Assembly (NCBI RefSeq): GCF_900564145.1 | Contig: NZ_UOOB01000001.1 | Location: forward strand, 2,544,754-2,608,753 | Source: Comamonas sp. lk | GTDB taxonomy: Bacteria; Pseudomonadota; Gammaproteobacteria; Burkholderiales; Burkholderiaceae_C | DNA: 64,000 nt | Direction: 5' to 3' | Shown here: positions 27,613 to 60,758 of the stretch, one piece after another | Position numbering within the stretch: the first letter of the stretch is position 1 | Layout: each line of letters begins with the position of its first letter | Notes under the pieces: model-generated | Told to the model about the DNA's origin: nothing | The model's input: only the letters and a program-made list of their open reading frames with translations | Databases searched by the model: none | Translations under genes and position numbers: made by a program

Positions 27613-27638
27613 GGGCGCTTATGCGCCCTCATTTTTTT
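27613..27638 (+). terminator. Leader terminator (possible attenuator) before kpsM
   Basis: A GC-rich 6-bp stem (GGGCGC 27613-27618, GCGCCC 27623-27628, loop TTAT) is followed by TCATTTTTTT. It is oriented to stop transcription before kpsM, whose ATG is 22 nt further on. A terminator at this spot only makes sense with an antitermination mechanism, or as the end of the upstream transcript. Confidence 0.65.
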
Positions 27639-27659
27639 GCAGGTGCTTCAGGCGGGTTT

Positions 27660-28478
27660 ATGGCAGAGACAGAAAAAATTGCAGGCAGCTCTGCGTACGG
27701 GGGAAGTAAGGCGTGGGTTGCCGCAGCCCATGTCTGGCAAGCGCTTTTTCTGCGCGAGGCGATGGTCAGGCTGTTTGGCTCCCGCTTTGCGTGGGTGTGG
27801 CTGTTGGTTGAGCCCATTGCCAACGTGCTGTGGCTGGTGTTGATCTTTACCTTCATTCAGGTTCGCCACATAGGGGGTGTGGCAACCGCACTGTGGCTTG
27901 CCGTCGGCATGCTGGTGTTCATGACCTTCAGGCGCACGCTCAGTCAGGTGCAGAACGGTGTGGATGCCAATCAATCCCTGTTTGCCTATCGACAGGTGCG
28001 CCCGCCTGATGTGGCCTTGGTGCGTGCGGCCGTGGAAGGCGTCAGCATGTTGATCATCAGCGCTTTGGTGTTTGCCATTGGCGCTTTCATGGGCTGGATG
28101 GCCTGGCCCGATAGTGCATGGAAAGTACTGGAGGCCTTTGTTCTCGCCTGGCTATGCGCTCTTGGCCTGGGCATGATTTTTGCGGTGATGGTGATGCTGG
28201 TGCCCGAACTGGAACGCATCATCGGCTTCATCATGATGCCTTTAATGATGATTTCTGGCGTGATGTTGCCGCTGTCTGCAATTAAACCTCCGTATGTGGA
28301 TTGGTTGCTTTACAACCCCTTGGCCCATGCGATTGAAGCGGCTCGACTTGGTTTTGCGCCTTACTACCACGCGGTGGGCGGTCTGGATCTGGCCTATGCC
28401 TATCAATGCGCTGTGGTGCTTGTCTTCACGGGGCTGCTGCTGTTCAGGCGCTTCAATCAAAGGCTGGTGACTCAATGA
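27660..28478 (+). CDS. kpsM: Capsule polysaccharide ABC exporter, permease KpsM
   Basis: KpsM with KpsT exports finished capsule chains across the inner membrane. The 272-aa protein has six membrane segments with the ABC-2 pattern (ALFLREAMVRLFGSRFAWVW, IIGFIMMPLMMISGVMLPLS, PYVDWLLYNPLAHAIEAAR). The ATG at 27660 was chosen since an earlier ATG at 27621 falls inside the leader terminator. The stop overlaps the start of kpsT by 4 nt. The gene is first in the operon. Confidence 0.93.
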   Translation: MAETEKIAGSSAYGGSKAWVAAAHVWQALFLREAMVRLFGSRFAWVWLLVEPIANVLWLVLIFTFIQVRHIGGVATALWLAVGMLVFMTFRRTLSQVQNGVDANQSLFAYRQVRPPDVALVRAAVEGVSMLIISALVFAIGAFMGWMAWPDSAWKVLEAFVLAWLCALGLGMIFAVMVMLVPELERIIGFIMMPLMMISGVMLPLSAIKPPYVDWLLYNPLAHAIEAARLGFAPYYHAVGGLDLAYAYQCAVVLVFTGLLLFRRFNQRLVTQ

Positions 28479-29149
28479 TTGAAGTCGTTGACGTACATAA
28501 GCGTTACTACACCGATCACGGCAATGGGCCCTGGGTGCTGCGTGGCGTGAACTTCACCATTCCCGCAGGCTGCAGCGTTGGCTTGATTGGAGGCAATGGT
28601 GCAGGCAAGTCCACGTTGCTGCGCATTATTGGTGGAGTGGACTACCCATCCCAAGGTGTTGTGCGAAGGCACTGCAATGTGTCCTGGCCAATGGGTTTTG
28701 GCGGTGGTCTGCAAGGCAGCATGACGGGCCGTCAGAACACCAAATTTGTGGCGCGGATCCACGGCATGGGACATGACTTGCCGCGCATTTTGCAACAGGT
28801 GCAGGATTTTGCCGAAATCGGTCCGGCCTTTGAGCAGCCCATCAAAACCTATTCATCGGGCATGAAATCGCGGCTGCAGTTTGCGCTGTCGCTGGCCTTT
28901 GATTTCGATGTCTATATCTCCGACGAAGTGACAGCCACTGGCGACCGAGCGTTCCAGGATAAGGCCGCTCAGGCTTTCAAGGACAAAGTGGGCAAAGCCA
29001 GTTTGATCATGGTCTCCCACAGCGAAAAAACCTTGCAGGACTTTTGCCAGGCCGGTGTTTGGTTGCACCAAGGCAAGGCCCAGTGGTTTGACCAGATTGA
29101 CGACGCGCTGCAAGCCTATCGCGACAGTATTTCCACCCGTACCCCATGA
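28475..29149 (+). CDS. kpsT: Capsule polysaccharide ABC exporter, ATPase KpsT
   Basis: The 224-aa ATP-binding subunit has Walker A GGNGAGKST (residues 39-47), a signature motif YSSGM (126-130, replacing LSGGQ as is usual for this family), Walker B VYISDE (146-151) and the H-loop histidine His182. KpsT drives capsule chain export with KpsM. Both ends overlap neighbours by 4 nt (ATGA), showing tight translational coupling of kpsM, kpsT and kpsE. Confidence 0.94.
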   Translation: MIEVVDVHKRYYTDHGNGPWVLRGVNFTIPAGCSVGLIGGNGAGKSTLLRIIGGVDYPSQGVVRRHCNVSWPMGFGGGLQGSMTGRQNTKFVARIHGMGHDLPRILQQVQDFAEIGPAFEQPIKTYSSGMKSRLQFALSLAFDFDVYISDEVTATGDRAFQDKAAQAFKDKVGKASLIMVSHSEKTLQDFCQAGVWLHQGKAQWFDQIDDALQAYRDSISTRTP

Positions 29150-30270
29150 AGCAATCTTTTCTCTCCGGGAGCCGTTGGTCGCGCTGGCTCCGTTCCTCCC
29201 CTCTCAGTGCAGTGACTTTAATGCTCTGCATAGGCTGCGCTGTTTACTGGCTGGTGCTTGCATCAGATCGTTATGTCTCTGAATCGCGGCTGATTGTGCA
29301 AAGCAGCAATTTGCCAACCGGAGGCTCGTTTGATCTGGGCAGCCTGCTCTCTGGGGGGGGAGCCGGCAATAACCGCAGCGATCAGCTGCTGCTGCGCGAG
29401 TATTTGCGCTCGCCAGACATGGCCGAGTTGCTGGACAAACAGCTGCAGTTGCGTGAGCACTTCAGCGCCTCTGGAGACTGGATCAGCAAACTGTGGTCGG
29501 CGGACGCCAGTCGTGAGCATTTCTACTGGTATTACCTGAGGCGTGTGGAGGTGGAATACGACGAATTTTCCGGGGTCCTCGTCATCAATGCCCAGGCTTT
29601 TTCTCCCGAAATGGCTCAGAAAATTACAGGCAGCCTGCTTCAGCAGGGCGAGCTGTTCATGAACCAGATGGCCCATGCCGTGGCGCAGGATCAAGTTAAT
29701 TTTCTGGAGGGGCAGGTTCGCGCGCTGGAGACCAAGGTGCGTAGTTCACGCCAGGCCGTGCTCGAGTTTCAAGAACAAAAAGGGCTGATCTCGCCGGAGG
29801 CCGCTGCACAGGCCATTGCCGTCATTGTGGCCAATATGCAAGGCCAGCTGGTCGACCTGCAGACCCAGCGCGGGGCACTTCAGGCCTATCTGGTGGCCGA
29901 CCACCCGAGCATTGTTTTGCTCAATCAGCGAATTGATGCGCTAGAGAAGCAGATGGCGCTTGAAAAAGACAAGCTTGCAGCGCCTGGCGGCAAGACGCTG
30001 AACCGCACGGCAGAAGCATTTGCCCAGCTCGAGCTTCAGTCCAAGTTTGCGCTGGATATGTACAAGACCGCTCTCACGGCGCTGGAGCAGGGGCGCCTGG
30101 AAGCGACTCGCACCTTGAAAAAAGTTGCCGTGCTGCAACAGCCTAATTTGCCAGAGCGCTCCATGCGCCCTCAGCGGCTATACAAGACCAGCATCTGGAT
30201 CATTGGCATTTTGCTTATGGCAGGTATCGCTCATTTGTTGTTGGCCATCGTCAAGGATCACCGCGATTGA
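29146..30270 (+). CDS. kpsE: Capsule polysaccharide export inner-membrane protein KpsE
   Basis: The 374-aa protein is a polysaccharide co-polymerase of the KpsE/CtrB/BexC type. It has a first transmembrane helix near 20-40 (LMLCIGCAVYWLVLAS), a large periplasmic part with coiled coil (QVNFLEGQVRALETKVRSS, QRIDALEKQMALEKDKL), the proline motif PNLPERSMRPQRLYK and a second helix near 350-368. KpsE bridges the KpsMT exporter to the outer-membrane KpsD channel. The start overlaps kpsT by 4 nt. Confidence 0.9.
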   Translation: MKQSFLSGSRWSRWLRSSPLSAVTLMLCIGCAVYWLVLASDRYVSESRLIVQSSNLPTGGSFDLGSLLSGGGAGNNRSDQLLLREYLRSPDMAELLDKQLQLREHFSASGDWISKLWSADASREHFYWYYLRRVEVEYDEFSGVLVINAQAFSPEMAQKITGSLLQQGELFMNQMAHAVAQDQVNFLEGQVRALETKVRSSRQAVLEFQEQKGLISPEAAAQAIAVIVANMQGQLVDLQTQRGALQAYLVADHPSIVLLNQRIDALEKQMALEKDKLAAPGGKTLNRTAEAFAQLELQSKFALDMYKTALTALEQGRLEATRTLKKVAVLQQPNLPERSMRPQRLYKTSIWIIGILLMAGIAHLLLAIVKDHRD

Positions 30271-30313
30271 TGCTATGTATTTGATAGCTTCTGGCGTCTA
30301 TCAGCGCTGGAGC
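30262..30313. repeat. Dispersed repeat copy between kpsE and kpsD
   Basis: GATTGATGCTATGTATTTGA followed by TAGCTTCTGGCGTCTATCAG and CGCTGG carries the core of the element. It overlaps the last codons of kpsE. Confidence 0.5.
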
Positions 30314-30334
30314 TCACGAAGAAAACTATCAAGA

Positions 30335-32122
30335 ATGTTCAAAAATATGGCGAGTCGCGCTACTCCACTGGTAGCGAATCAAAAAAACGAGTGCTTAAAG
30401 ACATTGGTTGCCACCCTGCTGTGGGGCGTTGCCCATGTTCATCCAGCACTGGCACAAACCGATCTCGGACTTGCGCAGGCTTTGTACGGAAGCAATGCGG
30501 CTGTGGCAAGCAACGCAACCATCCCAGGCAAGGAGGGCAAGGACTTAGCCTCAGTTGCAAAGCCCGCAGATGTGCGTGTGTTGGTTCCGGCACCTCAAAC
30601 ACAAGACCAATTGGAAAATCAGTCCAGTGATGTGTTTGGCGCGCAATTGTTTACCGGAGCCTTCAGCCAGCCTGGTGCCAGCCAGTTCAACCCGGACTAC
30701 GCCATTGCCATTGGCGACCAGATTCAGGTGCGTCTGTGGGGCGCATTTGCCTTTGAGCAAATGCTGACGGTAGACCCACGCGGCAATATCTTCTTGCCAC
30801 ACGCGGGGCCGGTCACCGTGGTTGGAGTGCGTAATCGAGAGCTGGAAGGCCTGGTGCAGGCTGCGGTGCGCCGCACCTTTCGCAACAACGTGAGCAGTTA
30901 TGCCAGCTTGGCGGCTGCGCAACCGGTGCGTGTGTTTGTCGGTGGCAACGTCAATCGCCCCGGCCTCTATAACGGTACCAGCATGGACAGCGTGCTGCGT
31001 TATCTGGACATGGCCGGTGGCGTGGACCCTGAGCGAGGCAGCTATCTGCAAGTGCAGGTCAAGCGCGGGCAGGAGACTAGAGCTACCGTCAATCTCTATG
31101 ATTTTTTACTGCAAGGCACCATGCCCATGGTGCAACTAGCGGATGGCGACGTGATCTTTGTGCCGCCGTATGAGCAGCGGGTCAAGGTCAAGGGTTTGGT
31201 TGCCAATGCCAAGCGCTTCGAATTTTTGGGTAGTCAGCAGACAGTGGCTCAGCTCATGGCGCTGGCCAAGCCCCAGGCCACGGCCACCCATGTTCGTGTC
31301 ACGCGCAATACCGGCAATATCCGCAATGCCGAGTACTACCCCTTGAGTGAAGCCAACCAAGTGGCGCTGGCCAATGGCGACGAGCTGGAGTTCACCGCAG
31401 ACAAAAAGCCGGGAACCATTACCGTGCGTGTGGAAGGCGAGCACAACAGCGCGCAGGAATATGTGCTGCCTTATGGCTCACATATGAGTGTGTTGTTGGA
31501 TCAGATTCAGTCCAATGTCAATTCAGACATGGGTAGCGTGCAACTGTTTCGTGAAAGCGTGAAACAGCGCCAAAAGGAAATGCTGGCAACCAGCCTGCAC
31601 AACTTGGAGATGAGTCTGCTGACCGCGCGCAGTGGCAGCAGCGACGAGGCCCGTCTGCGCAAGGATGAGGCAGAGCTGAGCCTGCAATGGGTCAAGCGCG
31701 CCAAGGAGGTTGAGCCCGTGGGGCAGGTGCAAATTGCCAAAGCCGGCCAGCTCGGCAGCATGCTGCTGGAAAACGGCGATGTGATCCGTATCCCTCGCAA
31801 AGATGATCTGGTGCTGGTCAGTGGCGAAGTGCTGTTCCCGAACGCCGTGGCCTACGACGCCAATCTAAATCTGCAAACCTATATCAACCGTGCCGGCGGC
31901 TTTACGCAAATGGCCGACAACGCGCGCGTGGTGGTGGCCAGACGTGATGGCTCGTATGAGCAGGTGGATACCGACAGCCTGTTTGGCCGCACCGATATCA
32001 AAGCCGGGGACCAGATTCTGGTGTTGCCCAAGGTGGACGAGAAAAAGCGCCAGTTCTGGAAGGATATGACGCAGATCATTTATCAGGTTGCTATCAGTGC
32101 CAAGGTTGTATTAGGTTTGTAG
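30335..32122 (+). CDS. kpsD: Capsule polysaccharide outer-membrane export protein KpsD
   Basis: The 595-aa protein has a signal peptide ending near HPALAQ, a polysaccharide-export domain (YAIAIGDQIQVRLWGAFAFE, then NIFLPHAGPVTVVGV) and several SLBB repeats (RVFVGGNVNRPGLYNGTSMD, DDLVLVSGEVLFPNAVAYDA, NLQTYINRAGGFTQMADNA). It is the KpsD/Wza-like outer-membrane channel partner. No lipobox cysteine is visible in the signal, as in KpsD. A 64-nt gap with a dispersed repeat separates it from kpsE. The start at MFKNMASRATPLVAN gives a proper signal peptide; upstream residues do not. Confidence 0.9.
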   Translation: MFKNMASRATPLVANQKNECLKTLVATLLWGVAHVHPALAQTDLGLAQALYGSNAAVASNATIPGKEGKDLASVAKPADVRVLVPAPQTQDQLENQSSDVFGAQLFTGAFSQPGASQFNPDYAIAIGDQIQVRLWGAFAFEQMLTVDPRGNIFLPHAGPVTVVGVRNRELEGLVQAAVRRTFRNNVSSYASLAAAQPVRVFVGGNVNRPGLYNGTSMDSVLRYLDMAGGVDPERGSYLQVQVKRGQETRATVNLYDFLLQGTMPMVQLADGDVIFVPPYEQRVKVKGLVANAKRFEFLGSQQTVAQLMALAKPQATATHVRVTRNTGNIRNAEYYPLSEANQVALANGDELEFTADKKPGTITVRVEGEHNSAQEYVLPYGSHMSVLLDQIQSNVNSDMGSVQLFRESVKQRQKEMLATSLHNLEMSLLTARSGSSDEARLRKDEAELSLQWVKRAKEVEPVGQVQIAKAGQLGSMLLENGDVIRIPRKDDLVLVSGEVLFPNAVAYDANLNLQTYINRAGGFTQMADNARVVVARRDGSYEQVDTDSLFGRTDIKAGDQILVLPKVDEKKRQFWKDMTQIIYQVAISAKVVLGL

Positions 32123-34563: not shown

Positions 34564-34842
34564 ATGAACGCACAACGCTACCCAGAAGAATTCAGGATTG
34601 AGGCCGTCAAGCAAATCTTGGAACACGGCCACAGCGCAGCCGACGTCTCACGCCGTTTAGGCGTGAGCACGCATAGTCTGTATAAGTGGATTCGACTGCA
34701 GCAAATCCCCGCAGCTCAGCGGCAGGAGCAAGTCAGTCAAAGCGAAGAATTACGCCGTATCAAAGCAGAACTCAAAAGGGTCACCGAGGAGCGTGACATC
34801 CTAAAAAAAGCGGCGGCGTACTTCGCTCGCCAGTGCGACTGA
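34564..34842 (+). CDS. IS3-family transposase OrfA
   Basis: The 92-aa protein has the IS3 OrfA helix-turn-helix (RYPEEFRIEAVKQILEHGHSA ... RRLGVSTHSLYKW) and the leucine-zipper-like tail (SEELRRIKAELKRVTEERDI) that links to OrfB. It ends after a run of seven A bases where ribosomes can shift to frame -1 and make an OrfAB fusion. Located 63 nt inside the left IS end. Confidence 0.95.
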   Translation: MNAQRYPEEFRIEAVKQILEHGHSAADVSRRLGVSTHSLYKWIRLQQIPAAQRQEQVSQSEELRRIKAELKRVTEERDILKKAAAYFARQCD

Positions 34843-34850
34843 AGTACGCC
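34803..34850 (+). promoter_or_regulatory. Programmed -1 frameshift site with downstream stem-loop
   Basis: The slippery run of seven A bases (34803-34809, then G) fits the orfA frame as CTA AAA AAA GCG. A perfect 10-bp inverted repeat (34815-34824 with 34841-34850) follows 5 nt later and would stimulate the slip. OrfB lies in the -1 frame. Confidence 0.8.
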
Positions 34851-35714
34851 TTCATTGCCAAGCACCAGTTGATTTACAGCGTTGTGCGCATGTGCCGGGT
34901 GCTGCAATTGCACCCCAGTGGTTACTACGCTTGGAGGGTTCGGCCGCTCAGTCAACGTGCGGCCGATGACCAGCGTCTATTGGGCCTTCTAAAGCAGGCA
35001 TGGCTAGAAAGCGGTGGCGTATATGGCTACCGCAAGTTGACATTGGACATGCGTGACTTAGGCGAGACCTGCAGCAGGCACCGGGTAGCAAGACTGCTGC
35101 GCTGTGAGGGATTAAAGGCTCAGCGAGGCTACGGACGACGCCCTCGTGTGCGAGGAGGTGCTCCAGCAGTCGTGGCTCCCAACTTACTATCGCAGCAGTT
35201 CACCGTGCATGCTCCGAACAAAGTCTGGGTGACTGATATCACCTATATCAGCACTCATGAGGGGTGGCTGTACCTGGCAACGGTAATTGACCTGTTCTCA
35301 CGCCAAGTTGTTGGCTGGGCAACAGGTAGCCGCATTGATACCCAGCTGCCCTTGGATGCATTGCATATGGCGCTCTGGCGTAGAAGACCATGCAATACCG
35401 TGACCGTGCACTCTGACCAAGGCTGCCAATTTACAAGCCATGAATGGCAGCGCTTCCTTGCTAGCCACAACCTGCAATCGAGTATGAGCAGGCGAGGAAA
35501 CTGTCACGACAACGCAGTTGCTGAAAGTTTTTTTCAGTTGCTTAAGCGGGAGCGCATCCGCAGAAAAACCTATCCTACGAGGCAAGAGGCGCACAGCGAT
35601 GTCTTCAGCTACATCGAAATGTTCTACAACCCCATTCGCAGACATTCGTCTGCTGATGGTCTGTCTCCAATAGAGTTTGAGAGACGTAATTCCGTGAGGC
35701 TGGCAGCTATCTAA
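34833..35714 (+). CDS. IS3-family transposase OrfB (DDE integrase)
   Basis: The protein has the DDE catalytic triad of IS3 OrfB: the first Asp in KVWVTDITYIST, the second in TVHSDQGCQFTS, and the Glu in NCHDNAVAESFFQLLKRE, all correctly spaced. It lies in the -1 frame relative to orfA and is probably made as an OrfAB fusion. Its stop is inside the right inverted repeat of the element. Confidence 0.94.
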   Translation: MRLKYAFIAKHQLIYSVVRMCRVLQLHPSGYYAWRVRPLSQRAADDQRLLGLLKQAWLESGGVYGYRKLTLDMRDLGETCSRHRVARLLRCEGLKAQRGYGRRPRVRGGAPAVVAPNLLSQQFTVHAPNKVWVTDITYISTHEGWLYLATVIDLFSRQVVGWATGSRIDTQLPLDALHMALWRRRPCNTVTVHSDQGCQFTSHEWQRFLASHNLQSSMSRRGNCHDNAVAESFFQLLKRERIRRKTYPTRQEAHSDVFSYIEMFYNPIRRHSSADGLSPIEFERRNSVRLAAI

Positions 35715-52663: not shown

Positions 52664-54156
52664 TGACGGGTATGTTGCGCGCTTTGACCCATCTGGGTAA
52701 AGGTGAGTTTGCGAAGAGCCTGGCTGCTGTTGATCGCGGCTGGAGTGGTTTGAATAGCTGGCAGCCGCTGGCGTATTACCGCTTGGGAATGTACCGAACG
52801 GTGGCTGATATGCCACTGCCTTCTGGAGACTGGCGTTATGCCTTTCCTCAGCTTGTGTCACTGGCTGCCTGTGGCCAACATGAGCAAGCGCGTAGCTTGA
52901 TGCAGACATTGCATTGGCACAGGTTGCCACAGCCTCTCAGGCAACGTCTGCGCGTGTCAATGGCCGATGCATTGGCTCCGTTGATGCCCCTAGAGGCCTT
53001 GCAGCTGTTTGAGACTGGGGGCGAGCGTACTGCTGCACATCCGGCATTGCATGCGGCGCTGCTGCTATGCAACGGGCGACTCTTGGATGCGCAAGCAGTG
53101 CTGAAGTCAGCTTTGGCAACTGGGCAGGCAAGCCGCTGGCCTGAGCTGCATCTTTATCAAACGATGGCTGAGAAGGGTGAGCCTCAACTGCAGTTGCAAA
53201 GGCTCAATGCTTTTATGGTGGCCTTTGGCTTGCCAGCGCTGGAGCTTCGCGATGGAAGTATCGCTCCAAGCCCTTGCAATGTGATGCTCTCGAAAGAGCT
53301 GCCGTCCTGCAACGGCCCTTTGGTCAGTGTGCTGATGACGACTTTTCGAACCAAGGAGCGCGCCAGCGTTGCAATCGAATCCTTGCTGAATCAGAGCTAC
53401 CGCAATCTAGAAATCATTGTGGTGGACGACGCTAGCGGCGATGAAACGCCAGATTTTGTCGATGCATGGGCCCGTCGGGATGCTCGCGTGCGGCTGTTGC
53501 GGCTGGACACTAATGGGGGTACCTATCTGGCCAAGAGCATGGGGTTGCAGTTGGCGCGTGGCGAGTTTGTGACTTGCCATGACTCGGATGATTGGTCGCA
53601 TCCGCTGAAGATTGAACTGCAGGTGCGGCCACTGCTCGAAGATGCTTCGCTGGTGGCAACAACCTCGCATTGGGTGCGAATGACGGATGACGGTATGTTC
53701 TATGCACGGCCCGTCCATTCCCTGATGAGGTTGAATCCATCGTCGCCACTGTTCCGGCGCGAGCTCGTTTTACAACGCATGGGGGCCTGGGATTGCGTCC
53801 GAACGGGGGCAGACAGCGAGTTTCTTGCACGCCTGCGCTTGGTGTTTGGCAAGAGGGCCATTAAGCGAATTGCGAAGCCACTGGCGTTGGGGTCGCACCG
53901 CGTAGGCTCATTAATGACGGCCGGTGACACCGGTTATTCTGAAACCGGTGTATCGCCCCAGCGGCTTGCCTATTGGGAGGCATGGTCCGCTTGGCACCTA
54001 GACTGTTTGCGGCACGATGAATTGCCTTGTTTGCCACTGGATATGCAGGCGCTTGCCAAGGACCGCCCGTTTCCCGCACCTGCCGAAATTTGTGTGAGTG
54101 CGCAGCAAAAAGAAACGACACAAGGACAAATGTGGTTGCAAGCCCACTGTCACTAG
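52663..54156 (+). CDS. GT2-family glycosyltransferase
   Basis: The 497-aa protein has an N-terminal helical region (about 1-200, TPR-like, KGEFAKSLAAVDRGWSG) and a GT2 domain (PLVSVLMTTFRTKERASVAI, IVVDDASGDETPDFVDAW, FVTCHDSDDWSHPLKIEL). The D-D-D pattern in VDDAS and HDSDD is the metal/nucleotide site. Located just before kpsC, it may act on the start of the chain near the Kdo linker or on the repeat itself. It overlaps pgi by one base (TGATG). Confidence 0.8.
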   Translation: MTGMLRALTHLGKGEFAKSLAAVDRGWSGLNSWQPLAYYRLGMYRTVADMPLPSGDWRYAFPQLVSLAACGQHEQARSLMQTLHWHRLPQPLRQRLRVSMADALAPLMPLEALQLFETGGERTAAHPALHAALLLCNGRLLDAQAVLKSALATGQASRWPELHLYQTMAEKGEPQLQLQRLNAFMVAFGLPALELRDGSIAPSPCNVMLSKELPSCNGPLVSVLMTTFRTKERASVAIESLLNQSYRNLEIIVVDDASGDETPDFVDAWARRDARVRLLRLDTNGGTYLAKSMGLQLARGEFVTCHDSDDWSHPLKIELQVRPLLEDASLVATTSHWVRMTDDGMFYARPVHSLMRLNPSSPLFRRELVLQRMGAWDCVRTGADSEFLARLRLVFGKRAIKRIAKPLALGSHRVGSLMTAGDTGYSETGVSPQRLAYWEAWSAWHLDCLRHDELPCLPLDMQALAKDRPFPAPAEICVSAQQKETTQGQMWLQAHCH

Positions 54157-54184
54157 CAGTGCTGCATTCTTTAGTCATCACACT

Positions 54185-56272
54185 GTGAATCAAAAAATCG
54201 GCATTTTTTCTGCTGGAATTCTGAGGATTCCACTTCTCTCTGTGTTGCTCAAGGCAACGCCGGAGCGTGCACGCCCTTGGCGCAGATTAGTCGTGGATGT
54301 GATCGCAGGCTGGGGGCTGCGCCCAAGCACTAAGAAAGCTTTGCGCTATGCCCGCAAGCATGGGCTCCCTTATCTGGCACTGGAGGATGGTTTCCTACGC
54401 TCTTTCGGTACGGGCGAGTATTACCCGCCGCTATCGCTGGTAGTTGATGACGAAGGCATTTACTACGATTGCACCCGGCCTAGCGCGTTGGAGCGTTTGC
54501 TGTGCAGCGATGCAGATGTGCTGGCCCCAGACGCAGCGCCGGTGCGCCAAGCGCGCGCCGCGCTGCTTTCGGCTGGTTTGAGCAAATACAACCACGCGCC
54601 GGATTTGCCTGAAGGCGTTTTGCGTACCAGCGATGTGCTGCGGGTGCTGGTGGTGGATCAGACAGCAGGCGATATGAGTGTGAAGCTGGGTGGGGCAGAT
54701 GCTACAACCTTTAAGGCAATGCTCGCCGCCGCGCAGGCTGAGAACCCCAACGCCACCGTGTATGTCAAGACTCACCCGGAAGTGTCCTCCGGCCGCAAGA
54801 GGGGTTATCTGGCAGATGTGCAGCCTGAGGAGCGCACCGTATTGCTGCGCGATGCAGTGAACCCTATGAGTTTGATCGCCCAGATGGATAAGGTCTACGC
54901 TGTCAGCTCCACCATGGGATTTGAAGCCTTGCTGGCAGGTAAGCCGGTGACTTGCTTTGGTGTGCCTTGGTACGCAGGCTGGGGGGTGACGGATGATCGT
55001 CAGATGCAGCATCCTGCTATGGCTCGGCGTGCTGTTCAGCGGCGCACGGTTGATGAACTGTTTGCTGCAGCCTATATGCACTACACGCGCTACCTGAATC
55101 CGGAAACGCGGCAGTTGGGTTCCATTACGGATGTGATGGAGTGGCTGGAGTGCCAGCGGAGGATGGCAAGGCGCTTTTCCGGTCGAATGATTTGCATAGC
55201 GTTTCCGCGCTGGCGTGCGTGGAACTTTAAAGAAAGGCTTTCCTTGCATCAGGGCCGGGTGCTGTTTGTTCGTCATGCAGCAGCGGCTGCCAAGTTGCAG
55301 CCGGCAGGTGCAGATTGCTTGGTCTGCTGGGGTAGGGTGCCGCCCGACGGAGTGCAGGAGTTGGCTGAGGCATCCGGCGTTCGCCTGCTGCACATGGAGG
55401 ACGGCTTTGTGCGCTCCGTAGGCCTGGGCTCGGACTTGATTGCGCCGCATTCCTTTGTGCTGGATGCGCAAGGCATTTATTTCGACCCAATCCAGCCTTC
55501 CGAACTGGAGGACTTGCTCAATACGCGGGCTTTCACCGCTCAGGATCTGGAGCGTGCCAGGAATGTGCGCGCTTTCATCGTCAAGCACGGCATTACCAAG
55601 TACAACCTGGAACCAAATCTTTCCGTGGATTGGCCGATAAATGACAAGCAAGTGGTTTTGGTGCCGGGCCAGGTGGAGGATGATGCTTCCATTCGTTTTG
55701 GTTGCGATGTCAAGGGCGTACATACCAACTTGGGCTTGGTTCAGGCTGCGCGATTAGCGTTCCCCTCAGCGTTCATCGTCTTCAAGCCGCACCCCGATGT
55801 CAGCAGCGGCAATCGCAATGGGCATGTCGACAAGGCTCAAGTGTTGAAACATGCCGATTACATAGAGCTTGATGCTTCGGTCGTCAGTTGTATCGAGGCT
55901 TGCGATGCAGTGGTGACGATGACGTCTTTGACGGGCTTTGATGCCTTACTTCGTGGCAAACATGTGTTGGTGCATGGTCGGCCTTTTTACGCAGGCTGGG
56001 GGCTGACCGAGGATGTGCTGCCGGTTCCAAGGCGGAAAAGACAACTTTCGATAGATGAATTAGTTGCCGGAGCTTTGCTGCACTATCCCTTGTACTGGGA
56101 TCCGTTGCTCAAAGGCTACACGACCTGTGAGGCGGTTTTACTCAGACTGTTGGAGGAGCGCGATGCCCGTGTTGCAGACGGCTCTCTTCAGAAACTCAGG
56201 TATGGATCGATCCGACGCAAGCTAAGAAAAATTACCATTTTGTTGCAATCTTCTTTTTTTAAGAACAAATGA
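54185..56272 (+). CDS. kpsC: Capsule linker beta-Kdo transferase KpsC
   Basis: KpsC extends the poly-beta-Kdo linker on lyso-phosphatidylglycerol with two retaining modules. The 695-aa protein shows the duplication: the first module has YLALEDGFLRSFGTGEYYPP and VYVKTHPEVSSGRKRG, the second has LLHMEDGFVRSVGLGSDL and IVFKPHPDVSSGNRNG. Each is followed by a TMGFEALL or TSLTGFDALLRGK block. GTG at 54185 (VNQKIGIFSAGILRIP) was chosen because this matches the usual KpsC start; the longer ATG frame would overlap the upstream gene. Confidence 0.9.
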   Translation: MNQKIGIFSAGILRIPLLSVLLKATPERARPWRRLVVDVIAGWGLRPSTKKALRYARKHGLPYLALEDGFLRSFGTGEYYPPLSLVVDDEGIYYDCTRPSALERLLCSDADVLAPDAAPVRQARAALLSAGLSKYNHAPDLPEGVLRTSDVLRVLVVDQTAGDMSVKLGGADATTFKAMLAAAQAENPNATVYVKTHPEVSSGRKRGYLADVQPEERTVLLRDAVNPMSLIAQMDKVYAVSSTMGFEALLAGKPVTCFGVPWYAGWGVTDDRQMQHPAMARRAVQRRTVDELFAAAYMHYTRYLNPETRQLGSITDVMEWLECQRRMARRFSGRMICIAFPRWRAWNFKERLSLHQGRVLFVRHAAAAAKLQPAGADCLVCWGRVPPDGVQELAEASGVRLLHMEDGFVRSVGLGSDLIAPHSFVLDAQGIYFDPIQPSELEDLLNTRAFTAQDLERARNVRAFIVKHGITKYNLEPNLSVDWPINDKQVVLVPGQVEDDASIRFGCDVKGVHTNLGLVQAARLAFPSAFIVFKPHPDVSSGNRNGHVDKAQVLKHADYIELDASVVSCIEACDAVVTMTSLTGFDALLRGKHVLVHGRPFYAGWGLTEDVLPVPRRKRQLSIDELVAGALLHYPLYWDPLLKGYTTCEAVLLRLLEERDARVADGSLQKLRYGSIRRKLRKITILLQSSFFKNK

Positions 56273-56381: not shown

Positions 56382-57794
56382 TTGGAGAGCGCAAGCAATT
56401 CAAGCTTTAAGCATAAAAAAGTATTGCTGCTGCAGGGGCCGGTAGGCCCATTTTTCTCAAATCTGGCTAGAGATCTGCGAGATGTGGGTGCTGAAGTTCT
56501 TAAATACAACTTCAATGCGGGGGACTGGCTGTTCTATCCCATGGGTGCAAGGAGCTTCAAAGGACAGATCGAAGACTGGTTGCCTGAGCTTAAGCGCTTC
56601 ATTCTTGCGCAGCAGATTGATGCCGTTTTGTTGTTCGGAGACTGCAGGCCTGTGCATGTCGGAGTCCGAAAGCTCGGCCAGCAAATGGGCTTTGCCGTGG
56701 GAGTGTTTGAAGAAGGCTATTTGCGGCCGGATCATGTGACCTTTGAGCCTATCGGAGTCAATGGTCATTCCCAATTTCATACGGCATTGGAATCTTGGCT
56801 CAGTTCCGTGGTGGCTGAAAGTGCCAGTTCATCGGAGCAGGATGAGCCAAGTGAAAGCATCAAGGCGACGGATAACTACCAGAAGGTAGGACGCTCCTAC
56901 TGGCATGCTGCCATGTGGGGCATGTTGTATTTCTTTGCGGCGTGGCTGGCGCAACGATTTTGGAACAACGATTTGCACCATCGCAAGATGTCGGTCGCTG
57001 ATGCTCCTTGGTGGTGGTTGTCCTTTGGGCGCAAGGCCTGGTATCGCTTTGCCGAGCGCGGTATTTCGCAGAGGTTGATAGGCGAAAGGCACGAACAGTT
57101 CTTTTTGGTGCCGCTACAGGTGCATAACGATGCACAAATCACCGTGCATTCGGACTATGAGTCGGTTTGCGGTTTTATCGACCATGTCATGAACTCCTTT
57201 GCTGCCGCATTGCGTCGCTCGGCAGTGGTGTCAGACAGCATTCCGCTGGGGCTTACCACGCTGAAGGATCATTTGCTCGTGTTTAAGCACCATCCTATGG
57301 ACCGAGGTCACAGGGACTATTCGAAAGTCATACGCTTGCTGACAAAGCGATATGGACTTGAGAAGCGAGTGCTCTACATACACGATCAGCACTTGCCCAG
57401 CTTGCTGAAAGCGGCCCAAGGGGTTGTGCTGGTCAACAGCACCACGGGTTTGTCCGCTCTGGGGCATGGAGCGCCGGTCAAGGTCTGCGGCAGTGCCTTG
57501 TACGACATACCCGGTCTGACTTATCAAGGGCATCTGAGCGAGTTCTGGCTTGCGGCACAGTCTGCTACGCCGGACAAGGAGGTTCTGAAACGCTTCAAGA
57601 GGGCTTTGCTGGAGAGAACGCAACTCAATGGCAATTTCTATAAGAAGCTGTCCGTATGTCAGTGGCGCTGTGGCGTCATGCTCCAGGGGAAGATGGCTCA
57701 GCGCCTGTGGCCTTTGCAAAATGCGGTATCTCCGCAACCTGTCTCCATCCATCCGCACGAGCCATTGGTGCAGGGGATGAAAGCAGAGCCATGA
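56382..57794 (+). CDS. kpsS: Capsule linker Kdo transferase KpsS
   Basis: KpsS adds the first beta-Kdo to lyso-phosphatidylglycerol. The 470-aa protein starts KKVLLLQGPVGPFFSNLARD, the family opening. It also contains LFGDCRPVHVGVRKLGQQMG, VFEEGYLRPDHVTFEPIGVN, LVFKHHPMDRGHRDYSKVI and LVNSTTGLSALGHGAPVKV. It starts with TTG, supported by a GAGGGG site 5 nt before. The stop overlaps the next gene by 4 nt, so the following three genes are physically coupled to it. Confidence 0.9.
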   Translation: MESASNSSFKHKKVLLLQGPVGPFFSNLARDLRDVGAEVLKYNFNAGDWLFYPMGARSFKGQIEDWLPELKRFILAQQIDAVLLFGDCRPVHVGVRKLGQQMGFAVGVFEEGYLRPDHVTFEPIGVNGHSQFHTALESWLSSVVAESASSSEQDEPSESIKATDNYQKVGRSYWHAAMWGMLYFFAAWLAQRFWNNDLHHRKMSVADAPWWWLSFGRKAWYRFAERGISQRLIGERHEQFFLVPLQVHNDAQITVHSDYESVCGFIDHVMNSFAAALRRSAVVSDSIPLGLTTLKDHLLVFKHHPMDRGHRDYSKVIRLLTKRYGLEKRVLYIHDQHLPSLLKAAQGVVLVNSTTGLSALGHGAPVKVCGSALYDIPGLTYQGHLSEFWLAAQSATPDKEVLKRFKRALLERTQLNGNFYKKLSVCQWRCGVMLQGKMAQRLWPLQNAVSPQPVSIHPHEPLVQGMKAEP

Positions 57795-58999
57795 GCGAGA
57801 AAGAAAATGCAGCCCCGTCGCGGTTGGTGGTGTTTGTTGGCGGATTTGATCCGAGAGGCGGACGCTACTACCACCGCTTGTGCGCTCAGCAGGCACGGCT
57901 CCAGGCGCAAGTGGATCAGGCTGAGTATGCAGTGGGCGAACTCAGAGCGCTTCAACTGGATGAAGCAGGCAAGGCACATTCGGTGTGGACCCTGGCCGGA
58001 TCTTCTGCTGACGCTAGCGAGTATGTGTTTTTCGACTGGACCGATCATATACGCGCGCATTGGCCCAAGTCGCTTTATGCCGTGTGCAAGGCAGGTCTTA
58101 GAACTTATGGGGAGGCGCTGATTAGTTGGCGCAGCCTTCGTTCGTTGGGTGCTGCACTTCCCTATACCTTGCTTGCCTTTGTCTATCCGTTGATCTTCAT
58201 GCTGCTGCTCGGTTTGTTCGGGGTAGCAGGTTTTTATGGCACTTGGCATGCAGGCGCCGACTGGCCCTGGTGGAGCCGGGCCCTGGCTTGTCTGGGTGTA
58301 GTTTCTGTGGTCGCGTGGGGCGGAAAAAAACTGGATGGTTTGTTGCACATCAGCTGGCTGCTCAGAATTTTTAACTTTGCACGTTCGAGTGCCAGAACTT
58401 CAGAGTCCGGTGCGACAGAACACGAGCGCATTCACGATATGGCTCAATGGCTTGCGCAACGAGTTCGGCAACAACCCGATTTGGAGTTGGTTGTGCTGGG
58501 CTTCAGCGTTGGAAGCGCTCAGTCCATCAAGCTGCTGGATGCACTGTCGGATGTATTGCGTAGCACTGAAGTGCAACCAGTGAAAGACCGGGTGACACTA
58601 CTGACCTTGGGCAACTGCATTCCCTTGTTCTCGTTCTTCCCGACGGCCAGTGGTTTTCGTTCAAGTGTGAGCAAGGTCGCCGCTGACCCGGAAATTTACT
58701 GGGTGGACATCTCCTCCCCAGGAGACAGCGTAAGCTTTGGCATGTGCGATTTATTGCAGTTGGCGTTACCCGACGCGTCTCCTGCGAATGAGTCTTACGT
58801 CAATCCTCGTCATATGTGCACTCCGCGCTTTCACAAGCTGTTTGAGCCTCGCCGTTACCGCTTCATTCGGCGCAACAAGATGCGCATGCATTTTCAGTAT
58901 CTGATGGCCTCCGAAAAAGCCGGAGCTTACAATTTTTTTGCCATGCTCACCGCGCCCACTACTGTGCGCAAATACGTAGAAAAGTTTTTGGTTCGATGA
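57791..58999 (+). CDS. Membrane alpha/beta-hydrolase-like protein coupled to kpsS
   Basis: The 402-aa protein has FVGGFDPRGGRYYHRLCAQQ near the start, two hydrophobic segments (about 121-149 and 163-177), and a C-terminal region with LELVVLGFSVGSAQSIKLLD. The GFSVGS motif (Ser239) fits the nucleophile elbow of an alpha/beta-hydrolase; possible partners are Asp315 and His367, but these are guesses. This suggests a membrane-bound esterase or lipase. No family is known to me for the whole. It overlaps kpsS and the P450 gene by 4 nt on each side. The start was set by the kpsS overlap. Confidence 0.55.
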   Translation: MSEKENAAPSRLVVFVGGFDPRGGRYYHRLCAQQARLQAQVDQAEYAVGELRALQLDEAGKAHSVWTLAGSSADASEYVFFDWTDHIRAHWPKSLYAVCKAGLRTYGEALISWRSLRSLGAALPYTLLAFVYPLIFMLLLGLFGVAGFYGTWHAGADWPWWSRALACLGVVSVVAWGGKKLDGLLHISWLLRIFNFARSSARTSESGATEHERIHDMAQWLAQRVRQQPDLELVVLGFSVGSAQSIKLLDALSDVLRSTEVQPVKDRVTLLTLGNCIPLFSFFPTASGFRSSVSKVAADPEIYWVDISSPGDSVSFGMCDLLQLALPDASPANESYVNPRHMCTPRFHKLFEPRRYRFIRRNKMRMHFQYLMASEKAGAYNFFAMLTAPTTVRKYVEKFLVR

Positions 59000-60414
59000 A
59001 TCGTTTTTGCCCCGTGTATCCCAAACCGCATCCTGAGAAAGCCTCCAAGCTCAGGATGTTTTTGCATGCCCGGCGTTCCTGGATGGATGCCTTGTTTGAA
59101 CGCAGCTACTCCATGCAAATGGGTGAGGTTCATCTGCCTGGCGTGGATCTGTACATGGTTAACGACACCAAGGAAATTAAGCGTGTGATGCAAACGCAGG
59201 CGCAGGACTTTCCTAAAAGTCATCTGCTGCATGAGTCCTTGAAGCCTCTGCTTGGTGACAGTATTTTCACTACTAATGGGGCGCTCTGGCAGAGTCAGCG
59301 CTCCATGATGAATCCCGCTTTTGAGCAGGCACGGCTGAATGTCGCATTCCCGCGCATGCTAGGTGCGGCCAACGCCATGCTGGAGCGGCTGGCCGAGCAG
59401 CAAACACAAGTGCCTTATGACATAGAAGTCGAAATGACGCATGTCACTGCCGATATTATTTTTCGCACGATTTTCTCCACGCCCATGCAGGGCGCTGATG
59501 CGCACCAAGTGTTTCATTCATTTGCGCACTACCAGGCACTGGCACCCAAATTGATGCTCCCGGCGCTATTTGGCATTCGCTGGCTCAAACTACCCTGGCT
59601 CAATTGGCAAAGTAAAAAATCCGCAAGGAAAATCCGCAATCTGCTGCATTCCATGATCAAGCCGCGTTATGAGGCACATATGCGTGGCGAATCTGGCGAG
59701 CACGAGGATATTTTGGCGGCCTTCATGACCGCCAAGGATCCTGAAACCGGCAAAGCATTTACTGAATCCGAATTGGTGAATCAGGTAGCCATGCTGTTTT
59801 TGGCCGGCCATGAAACCTCGGCCAGTGCTCTGACCTGGGCTTGTCATCTTTTGGCCAATTCGTCCGATATTCAGGCGAGAGCGCGCTTGCAAATCGATGA
59901 GGTGTTTGCCGGGCGCGAGCCTACGCAGGCAGATATGAAAAGCCTGCCTTTGCTATGGAATATTTTCAGGGAGACTTTGCGCCTGTTCCCTCCGGTGGGT
60001 TTTTTTGCCCGGGAAAATACCAGTGCCTGCCCTATGCGCGGGAAGCAGCTCAAGCCGCACAGCACGGTGGTGGTGGCTCCCTGGCTGCTGCAGCGCCACC
60101 GCAAATGGTGGAAGGAGCCCGATGCTTTCGATCCAGACCGCTTTGACAGACAGGAGAGCAAGGAGGCCATCAAGCACGCATATATGCCGTTCAGCATGGG
60201 ACCTAGAGTCTGCTTGGGGGCCGCTTTTGCGTTGCAGGAAGCGGTTCTCATCTTGGCCTGTTTGTTGAGAGAGTATGAGCTTTTGCCGGTGGACGACCAT
60301 GTGCCCCAGCCTGTGGGACGCTTGACAATCCGTTCTGAAAACGGAGTGCAGGTGCAACTGAAAAAACGCAACCCGCTAGAGCTTGCTGAGGGCGCGACGG
60401 GTGTATCGGCATGA
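58996..60414 (+). CDS. Cytochrome P450
   Basis: The 472-aa protein has all P450 signatures: the I-helix AGHETSAS (270-277), the K-helix ExxR in FRETLRLFPP (Glu326, Arg329), and the heme loop FSMGPRVCLG (Cys406 ligand). P450s insert oxygen into C-H bonds; they need reducing partners, not found in this window. Fatty-acid hydroxylases (CYP102-like) share the general pattern. A P450 coupled by ATGA overlaps to kpsS is unusual. It is probably soluble; no signal or anchor is visible. Confidence 0.92.
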   Translation: MNRFCPVYPKPHPEKASKLRMFLHARRSWMDALFERSYSMQMGEVHLPGVDLYMVNDTKEIKRVMQTQAQDFPKSHLLHESLKPLLGDSIFTTNGALWQSQRSMMNPAFEQARLNVAFPRMLGAANAMLERLAEQQTQVPYDIEVEMTHVTADIIFRTIFSTPMQGADAHQVFHSFAHYQALAPKLMLPALFGIRWLKLPWLNWQSKKSARKIRNLLHSMIKPRYEAHMRGESGEHEDILAAFMTAKDPETGKAFTESELVNQVAMLFLAGHETSASALTWACHLLANSSDIQARARLQIDEVFAGREPTQADMKSLPLLWNIFRETLRLFPPVGFFARENTSACPMRGKQLKPHSTVVVAPWLLQRHRKWWKEPDAFDPDRFDRQESKEAIKHAYMPFSMGPRVCLGAAFALQEAVLILACLLREYELLPVDDHVPQPVGRLTIRSENGVQVQLKKRNPLELAEGATGVSA

Positions 60415-60758
60415 AAGAGCGCTTAGCGGGGTTTGCGCTGATGTGCGCCATTGTGCCCATGGCATTTTTGGGCTACCTGCTCTTGGTCATCGTGGGTTTT
60501 TGCGGCAAGGCGGAGCGTGGCCGTTCGGGCGTCAGAGCCTTGGATCACTTTGTCAACGCAACCTTGTTCAATGGTTATGCATGGGAGAGTGTCTCGTCAC
60601 ATGCCTGGCGTGAACGCGAGAACAAATCCTGGGCGCGCGCAGTCATCAAATTGACCGATTGCTTCCAGAAAGACCATTGCATGCGGGCTAACAAGCGTGA
60701 GCAGCCGGTGGTGGACTTGATCCTTAAAAAAGGACTGGATAGACAAACGATTCGCTAG
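60411..60758 (+). CDS. Small membrane protein, last gene of the capsule operon
   Basis: The 115-aa protein has one transmembrane helix at about 7-33 (GFALMCAIVPMAFLGYLLLV) and a basic cytoplasmic or periplasmic tail (LDHFVNATLFNGYAWESVSS, DCFQKDHCMRANKREQPVV). The tail has a faint likeness to small phage membrane proteins (pattern iSsraW..HC...E), which is only an impression. It overlaps the P450 gene by 4 nt, the last in this chain of overlaps. No clear terminator follows. Confidence 0.6.
   Translation: MKERLAGFALMCAIVPMAFLGYLLLVIVGFCGKAERGRSGVRALDHFVNATLFNGYAWESVSSHAWRERENKSWARAVIKLTDCFQKDHCMRANKREQPVVDLILKKGLDRQTIR

Follow-up and report, generated by a model that had tools for sequence, protein, structure and literature searches.

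A P450-containing gene trio as a conserved, optional accessory of KpsC/KpsS capsule systems, with a possible role at the lipid terminus

In a 64,000-nucleotide stretch of the genome of Comamonas sp. lk (hereafter the window), the capsule genes kpsC and kpsS are followed by genes for a membrane hydrolase, a cytochrome P450 and a 115-residue membrane protein. The evidence strongly links this trio to the capsule, as an optional, conserved accessory of KpsC/KpsS. It extends, and defines more sharply, what is in print as a single P450 from Campylobacter. Our preferred reading, for which we regard the case as evenly balanced, is that the trio forms an inner-membrane cassette acting on the lipid terminus of KpsC/KpsS capsules by oxidation and by deacylation or transacylation, a chemistry that we infer from genomic context and from published work on the Campylobacter enzyme. 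The breadth of the trio, its coupling to KpsC/KpsS without physical linkage, the hydrolase triad, a hydrolase-P450 fusion and an extended form of the module were not found in the open-access literature and appear to be new.

The Capsule Locus and the Gene Trio

The five genes of interest, two of them encoding transferases of 3-deoxy-D-manno-octulosonic acid (Kdo), are as follows:

54098..56272, + strand: kpsC, beta-Kdo transferase; mechanically assigned GTG start; PF05159 in four stretches, E 1.2e-98
56382..57794, + strand: kpsS, beta-Kdo transferase; mechanically assigned TTG start; PF05159, E 2.8e-65
57791..58999, + strand: membrane alpha/beta serine hydrolase, 402 residues; Ser239, Asp306/Asp312 and His367; hydrophobic stretch at about 118-152
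58996..60414, + strand: cytochrome P450, 472 residues; PF00067, E 4e-75; heme-Cys, ETLR and AGHET motifs
60411..60758, + strand: membrane protein of 115 residues; one N-terminal hydrophobic helix and a highly conserved helical part

With kpsC and kpsS side by side and exporter genes in the same locus (an ATP-binding cassette (ABC) membrane protein, an ABC ATPase and a Poly_export protein at 27621-32122), the window has the gene content of a group 2-type KpsC/KpsS system. The kpsS product scores 392 bits against the KpsS model NF050054, below its cut-off of 600, and a KpsE-like frame was called by eye and matches no Pfam family. The sequence ATGA spans all three junctions, from the end of kpsS into the hydrolase gene (57791-57794), from the hydrolase gene into the P450 gene (58996-58999) and from there into the small-protein gene (60411-60414). 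The coordinates and overlaps of a first-pass annotation, made from the letters of the window, were thus exact, and its P450 and kps family assignments agree with the domains found. The genome is 4.9 Mb in two contigs with a completeness rating of 100%, and the sole match to the window P450 within it is the protein itself. The capsule locus also contains, at 34833-35714, a transposase-like gene whose product has an integrase core (PF00665, E 6.8e-31).

Conservation of the Trio and Coupling to KpsC/KpsS

An alignment of the small protein served to scan genomes of many species; the best 80 of 146 relatives were kept as loci (L numbers below), and their reading frames were searched by profile. All 80 have the P450 and 79 have the hydrolase, the sole exception being a 4.4-kb contig cut inside the P450 gene. 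Either kpsC or kpsS is nearby in 56, and in 55 of these 56 lies no more than 2 kb from the outermost module gene. Exporter genes were seen near the module less often (kpsM in 16, kpsT in 19, kpsE in 19 and kpsD in 15 of the 80) by a less sensitive, single-sequence search. On the plus strand, the order was hydrolase-P450-small protein in 53 loci, the same with a further hydrolase at the end in 13, and small protein-hydrolase-P450 in 5; the other 9 include loci cut by contig ends or with genes on the opposite strand. Among close plus-strand pairs, a four-nucleotide NTGA overlap joins hydrolase to P450 in 45 of 71 and P450 to small protein in 51 of 67. The flank occupied by kpsS differs between loci, which favours functional linkage over inheritance as a frozen block. 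Chance adjacency was rejected on the counts in the 80 loci, on the PF05159 matches in genomes whose loci lack kps genes and on the Fisher values of the family survey (the last two described below).

Record titles with the trio include Comamonas, Acidovorax, Ideonella, Sphaerotilus, Cupriavidus, Vogesella, Methylotenera, Oceanimonas, Zobellella, Campylobacter, Helicobacter, Sulfurovum and Poseidonibacter. The first-pass annotation had assigned the three genes to the capsule genes as one module; their co-occurrence supports this, and homologues do stand beside kpsS elsewhere, in Beta- and Gammaproteobacteria and in Campylobacterota. In one genome (G053 of the survey below; L148:5001-7754, minus strand, the same as L027), a stop-free frame of 918 codons carries a hydrolase part (43-413) and a P450 part (453-909) with no Met between them before 482. 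This fusion is a paralogue lying away from kps genes and was seen in that genome only; joining in one frame suggests that the two enzymes act together. In the Methylobacillus-type loci L099 and L100, a PhyH-family dioxygenase adjoins kpsS and the P450 lies some kilobases off; such a dioxygenase was seen near kpsS in three loci only (L099, L100 and L163).

Coupling to KpsC/KpsS extends beyond adjacency. For the 24 loci without kps genes in the available DNA, the genome has kpsC in 21 cases and PF05159 in 23, although PF05159 alone is unspecific, with matches in E. coli and B. subtilis as two of the 14 genomes used as controls. The one genome without it is a metagenome bin. The neighbourhoods of modules without kps genes nearby (L058, L073, L113; 10 neighbours scanned) revealed no shared partner.

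We also surveyed 399 genomes of the window's family (G numbers), a set that overlaps the named loci (e.g., L060 is G128), so that the two are not independent. The hydrolase was matched in 24 genomes, kpsC in 44 and the P450 at more than 330 bits in 19, with a runner-up of 232 bits in any other genome. Comparison of the lists showed that all 19 P450 genomes, which we count as module genomes, carry both the hydrolase and kpsC. Three genomes with weak kpsC matches (G298, G335 and G358; E 2.7e-7 or worse) were removed, and with the 41 clear kpsC genomes the association has a Fisher exact value of 1.8e-21, uncorrected for kinship. By genera, kpsC occurs in 10 of 10 with the module against 23 of 141 (Fisher 1.9e-9, uncorrected for deeper kinship). 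Five genomes (G139, G223, G293, G353 and G361) have the hydrolase (E 1.9e-17 to 3.9e-31) and no kpsC; as none has a P450 above 330 bits, they were not counted as module genomes, and counting them gives 19 of 24 and a Fisher value of 3e-16. In 10 of these 19 genomes, from three genera, the coordinates put the module and kpsC on separate contigs or at a distance of hundreds of kilobases.

Of the 41 clear kpsC genomes, 22 lack the module. On a 56-row KpsC tree (each row of at least 600 bits and 560 residues), presence and absence of the module require at least four changes, three of them forced by supported branches. Twenty of the 22 module-free loci were fetched (G056 and G316 were left out), of which 13 passed these thresholds. 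Given the absences and the repeated changes of state, we conclude that the module is an accessory which KpsC/KpsS systems may have or lack. Some KpsC matches cover about half of the protein, as if one transferase module were present (L055, L068, L078 and L090, and survey genomes G039, G053, G064, G113 and G279), often in loci of the extended form described below.

The P450 and Its Campylobacter Counterpart

The window P450 has, besides PF00067, the I-helix acid-alcohol motif (AGHET at 270), ExxR (ETLR at 326) and the heme-Cys motif (FSMGPRVCLG at 399), and is thus a member of the P450 family. Against the glycosyltransferase-activator model TIGR04515 it reaches 27.5 bits (E 2e-6) with a cut-off of 343, which places it outside that family; loss of the heme-Cys is expected of P450-derived activators of this kind, and the window P450 retains it. 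A quick tree of 67 rows, given by the tool with a long-branch warning, sets apart with support 100 the 12 P450s from the window's family that belong to no module. On the other side stand all 51 module P450s, including those of Campylobacter, with four paralogues nested among them. L145, L146 and L147 have paralogues from this clade that do not lie near kps genes, with an adjoining hydrolase in the first two. In L146, a gene with an LPG_synthase_TM (lysylphosphatidylglycerol synthase membrane) domain lies two genes from the paralogous pair; none was seen among the eight neighbours scanned for L145 or the two for L148. In L149, L150 and L047, a second, divergent P450 copy adjoins the usual one.

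Two Campylobacter jejuni loci (L081 and L084) share the window's order of kpsC, kpsS, hydrolase, P450 and small protein. Between the window and L081, identity is 45% for the P450, 28% for the hydrolase and 73% for the small protein. Tree and neighbours together place the window P450 in the orthologue group of C. jejuni Cj1411c, whose own neighbours we take to be Cj1412c and Cj1410c. The P450s of both loci have 453 residues, as does Cj1411c (PMC3784454). One passage of a second paper, as far as its text was available, names Cj1412c next to Cj1411c, and its table of C. jejuni elements places both close to the phospholipase gene pldA (PMC8405632). In L081 (Campylobacter jejuni 414), kpsS is in two overlapping frames, compared with one frame in other Campylobacter loci.

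The first-pass annotation had stated that no kps system with a P450 was described; this does not hold, as Cj1411c and its capsule phenotype are already in print (PMC3784454). According to the parts of that paper available to us, Cj1411c has a Cys-ligated heme with a 450-nm carbon monoxide band, is 83% membrane-bound, and shows a substrate-like spectral shift with inner membranes and not with cytosol. Its deletion lowered serum survival, and it lowered the staining of capsule and lipooligosaccharide (LOS), which complementation restored; the discussion assigns most of the enzyme, not beyond doubt, to the outer-membrane fraction (PMC3784454). The same text treats the P450 alone and calls it devoid of close homologues; the hydrolase and the small protein do not figure in it (PMC3784454). 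No open-access paper naming kpsS, a cytochrome P450 and capsule together was found, and no solved structure matched the C. jejuni P450 at E 1e-60.

The Hydrolase

Searches of Pfam and NCBIfam at E 0.1 placed the window hydrolase in no family. In an alignment of 83 relatives, Ser239 is present in 82, the remaining one (from L100) having Cys in place of this nucleophile, and Gly241, Asp306, Asp312 and His367 are present in all 83. An AlphaFold2 model (mean predicted local distance difference test, pLDDT, 93.5) is predicted to adopt an alpha/beta hydrolase fold with lipase-like matches that include lipid hydrolases. With its nucleophile-elbow Ser, Asp and His and this predicted fold, the protein qualifies as an alpha/beta serine hydrolase. 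Foldseek returned no match at E 0.001, and pyridoxal kinase and FimX rank among the lipases and esterases. Likeness to the glycosylphosphatidylinositol-inositol deacylase PGAP1/Bst1 and the phospholipase PlaB is in fold only, at 9-14% identity. The fold comparison does not single out a substrate, as thioesterases (up to 10.9) and monoacylglycerol lipase (9.8) reach about the same scores. Weak lipid-hydrolase profile matches link the hydrolase to a mono- and diacylglycerol lipase (E 0.021) and the Campylobacter copy to PF10230 (E 7.5e-5, 23 bits, cut-off 27), and no curated cut-off of a named lipase or phospholipase family was passed by the window protein (Pfam, NCBIfam) or the Campylobacter copy (PF10230). 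The window hydrolase is 89% identical to one of Comamonas aquatilis. In Comamonas testosteroni NFYY023 (L060), a natural case of loss, the hydrolase match falls into two pieces separated by about 3.8 kb, with the break ahead of the catalytic His; kpsS, too, is in separate pieces.

The Small Membrane Protein

The small protein is 69-80% identical to the copies in 18 compared loci. It has a hydrophobic stretch at residues 4-35 and is modelled as all-helical (pLDDT 81.5, predicted template modelling score 0.53). Pfam and NCBIfam gave no match to it at E 0.1, and a fold search returned a single PDB row at E 9.5, so that the structure points to no function. A distant match to PHROG 3342, a phage family without an assigned function, covers residues 43-97 only (E 4.6e-6; E 9.2e-8 for the Campylobacter copy). 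A reading of the trio as a phage or mobile module was set aside; a search of 50,697 phage records gave no match to the small protein at E 1. The prophage copy in L034 matches 18 phage records; among the 15 matches listed all are hypothetical proteins, four of which sit at a tail or tail-fibre gene. This prophage member adjoins a lysozyme-like frame, recognized by eye.

An Extended Form of the Module

Of the 14 loci with at least two hydrolases, 13 have a GT28/GT1-type glycosyltransferase joined to the module (L055, L062, L064, L068, L071, L078, L080, L083, L085, L087, L088, L090 and L112), compared with none of the other 66 (Fisher 4e-14, uncorrected for kinship); many contigs are short, so that absence weighs less than presence. 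The two-hydrolase locus without the glycosyltransferase is L073, and L055 has in addition a third hydrolase and a second P450. Outside the 80, the glycosyltransferase occurs in two single-hydrolase survey genomes (G064, 256 bits; G080, 104 bits) and in the module-free kpsC locus L154 (110 bits). The L055 and L080 copies match PF06722 and PF03033, and PDB relatives of the latter copy are GtfB, a rhamnosyltransferase and a sterol glucosyltransferase.

Enzymes of the GT28/GT1 type glycosylate hydroxyl groups of small or lipid molecules. This glycosyltransferase could accept a hydroxyl made by the P450, and mainly for this reason we prefer lipid hydroxylation over other P450 chemistry. Microbial glycolipid pathways of the sophorolipid or rhamnolipid type combine fatty-acid oxidation or hydroxy-acyl building with a GT1 glycosyltransferase and an alpha/beta hydrolase, an activity set that the extended form resembles. 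Their products, however, are secreted surfactants, whereas the set described here is tied to KpsC/KpsS.

Proposed Role and Alternatives

In our proposal, the hydrolase would take an acyl chain off the acceptor, phosphatidylglycerol or Kdo-phosphatidylglycerol, or transfer it, and the P450 would oxidize, most likely hydroxylate, an acyl chain of the same lipid. The small protein may hold both enzymes at the membrane or present the lipid, and in the extended form the glycosyltransferase and second hydrolase could use the new hydroxyl as an acceptor. A role at the lipid anchor, as the first-pass annotation had also proposed, has indirect support from the coupling to KpsC/KpsS, the lipase-like predicted fold, the C. 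jejuni P450 with its partner or substrate in the inner membrane, and the glycosyltransferase of the extended form; we infer from these the substrate, the order of reactions and the part played by the small protein. That a capsule pathway can have a dedicated enzyme for tailoring its anchor lipid is known from the Vi-antigen; that enzyme is a hydroxyacyltransferase, and the available text on it does not mention a P450 (PMC9597891).

Several points weigh against the lipid anchor as the target. The C. jejuni P450 deletion reduced LOS staining as well (PMC3784454). In the available source text the C. jejuni anchor is given as diacylglycerol phosphate, and a hydroxylated anchor in this pathway was not found in the open-access literature. 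The C. jejuni anchor is dipalmitoyl. Only tentatively do we extend the proposal to many KpsC/KpsS capsules, including that of C. jejuni: an enzymatically oxidized lipid would underlie or carry them, its phosphatidylglycerol terminus being made hydroxy-acyl by the trio in an oxygen-dependent step, with further glycosylation and re-acylation by the glycosyltransferase and the second hydrolase in some Burkholderiales.

An unlikely alternative, which we nevertheless take seriously, is that the hydrolase serves acceptor supply, as a dedicated phospholipase A that makes lyso-phosphatidylglycerol for KpsS, and that the P450 deals with the freed fatty acid or a side product. The window locus shares KpsC/KpsS family genes and an ABC exporter with the E. 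coli group 2 pathway, in which KpsS uses a phosphatidylglycerol-based terminus and the capsule ends in (lyso)phosphatidylglycerol-poly-Kdo; the source passages seen make no mention of its oxidation, and E. coli encodes no P450 (PMC3784454). The lipase- or phospholipase-like fold and the weak PF10230 match of the Campylobacter copy would suit such a role. Against it, more than half of the clear kpsC genomes of the family (the 22 of 41 above) manage without the module, and the P450 is linked as strictly as the hydrolase, which is hard to square with action on waste only.

General oxidation of envelope lipids, with bulk phospholipid or lipid A modified and the capsule affected indirectly, seems to us rather improbable. 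It would explain the loss of LOS staining in the C. jejuni deletion and the position of the L058, L073 and L113 modules among genes of other pathways, but it leaves unexplained the close tie to KpsC/KpsS in the named loci (56 of 80 nearby, PF05159 in 23 of the remaining 24 genomes) and in the survey (19 of 19). Tailoring of the capsule sugar or the Kdo linker by the P450 is less credible again. Position in the capsule operon speaks for it, as does Kdo as the other shared component that KpsC/KpsS make, but the partners of the P450 are lipase-like and transmembrane, and the spectral shift of the C. jejuni P450, in the text available, required the inner-membrane fraction (PMC3784454). Very unlikely in our view is a non-catalytic P450 whose role is to activate a glycosyltransferase, as P450-derived proteins do for the glycosyltransferases of macrolides: the window P450 touches TIGR04515 and the L080 glycosyltransferase touches TIGR04516 (E 5.7e-22, 78 bits, cut-off 440), but the heme-Cys, AGHET and ExxR motifs are intact, the C. 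jejuni enzyme binds a Cys-ligated heme with a 450-nm band, and 67 of the 80 loci show no such glycosyltransferase in the available DNA.

Implications

What is conserved in this class of capsules is considered to be the KpsC/KpsS glycolipid, and the P450 cassette suggests variant chemistry at that very point. The trio provides the C. jejuni P450, the substrate of which was left open in the 2013 paper, with a genomic context and two partners, and Comamonas, Oceanimonas and Sphaerotilus offer environmental hosts in which to look at the cassette. If our preferred reading of a lipid-modifying cassette is true, a step of capsule formation in these bacteria would become oxygen-dependent.

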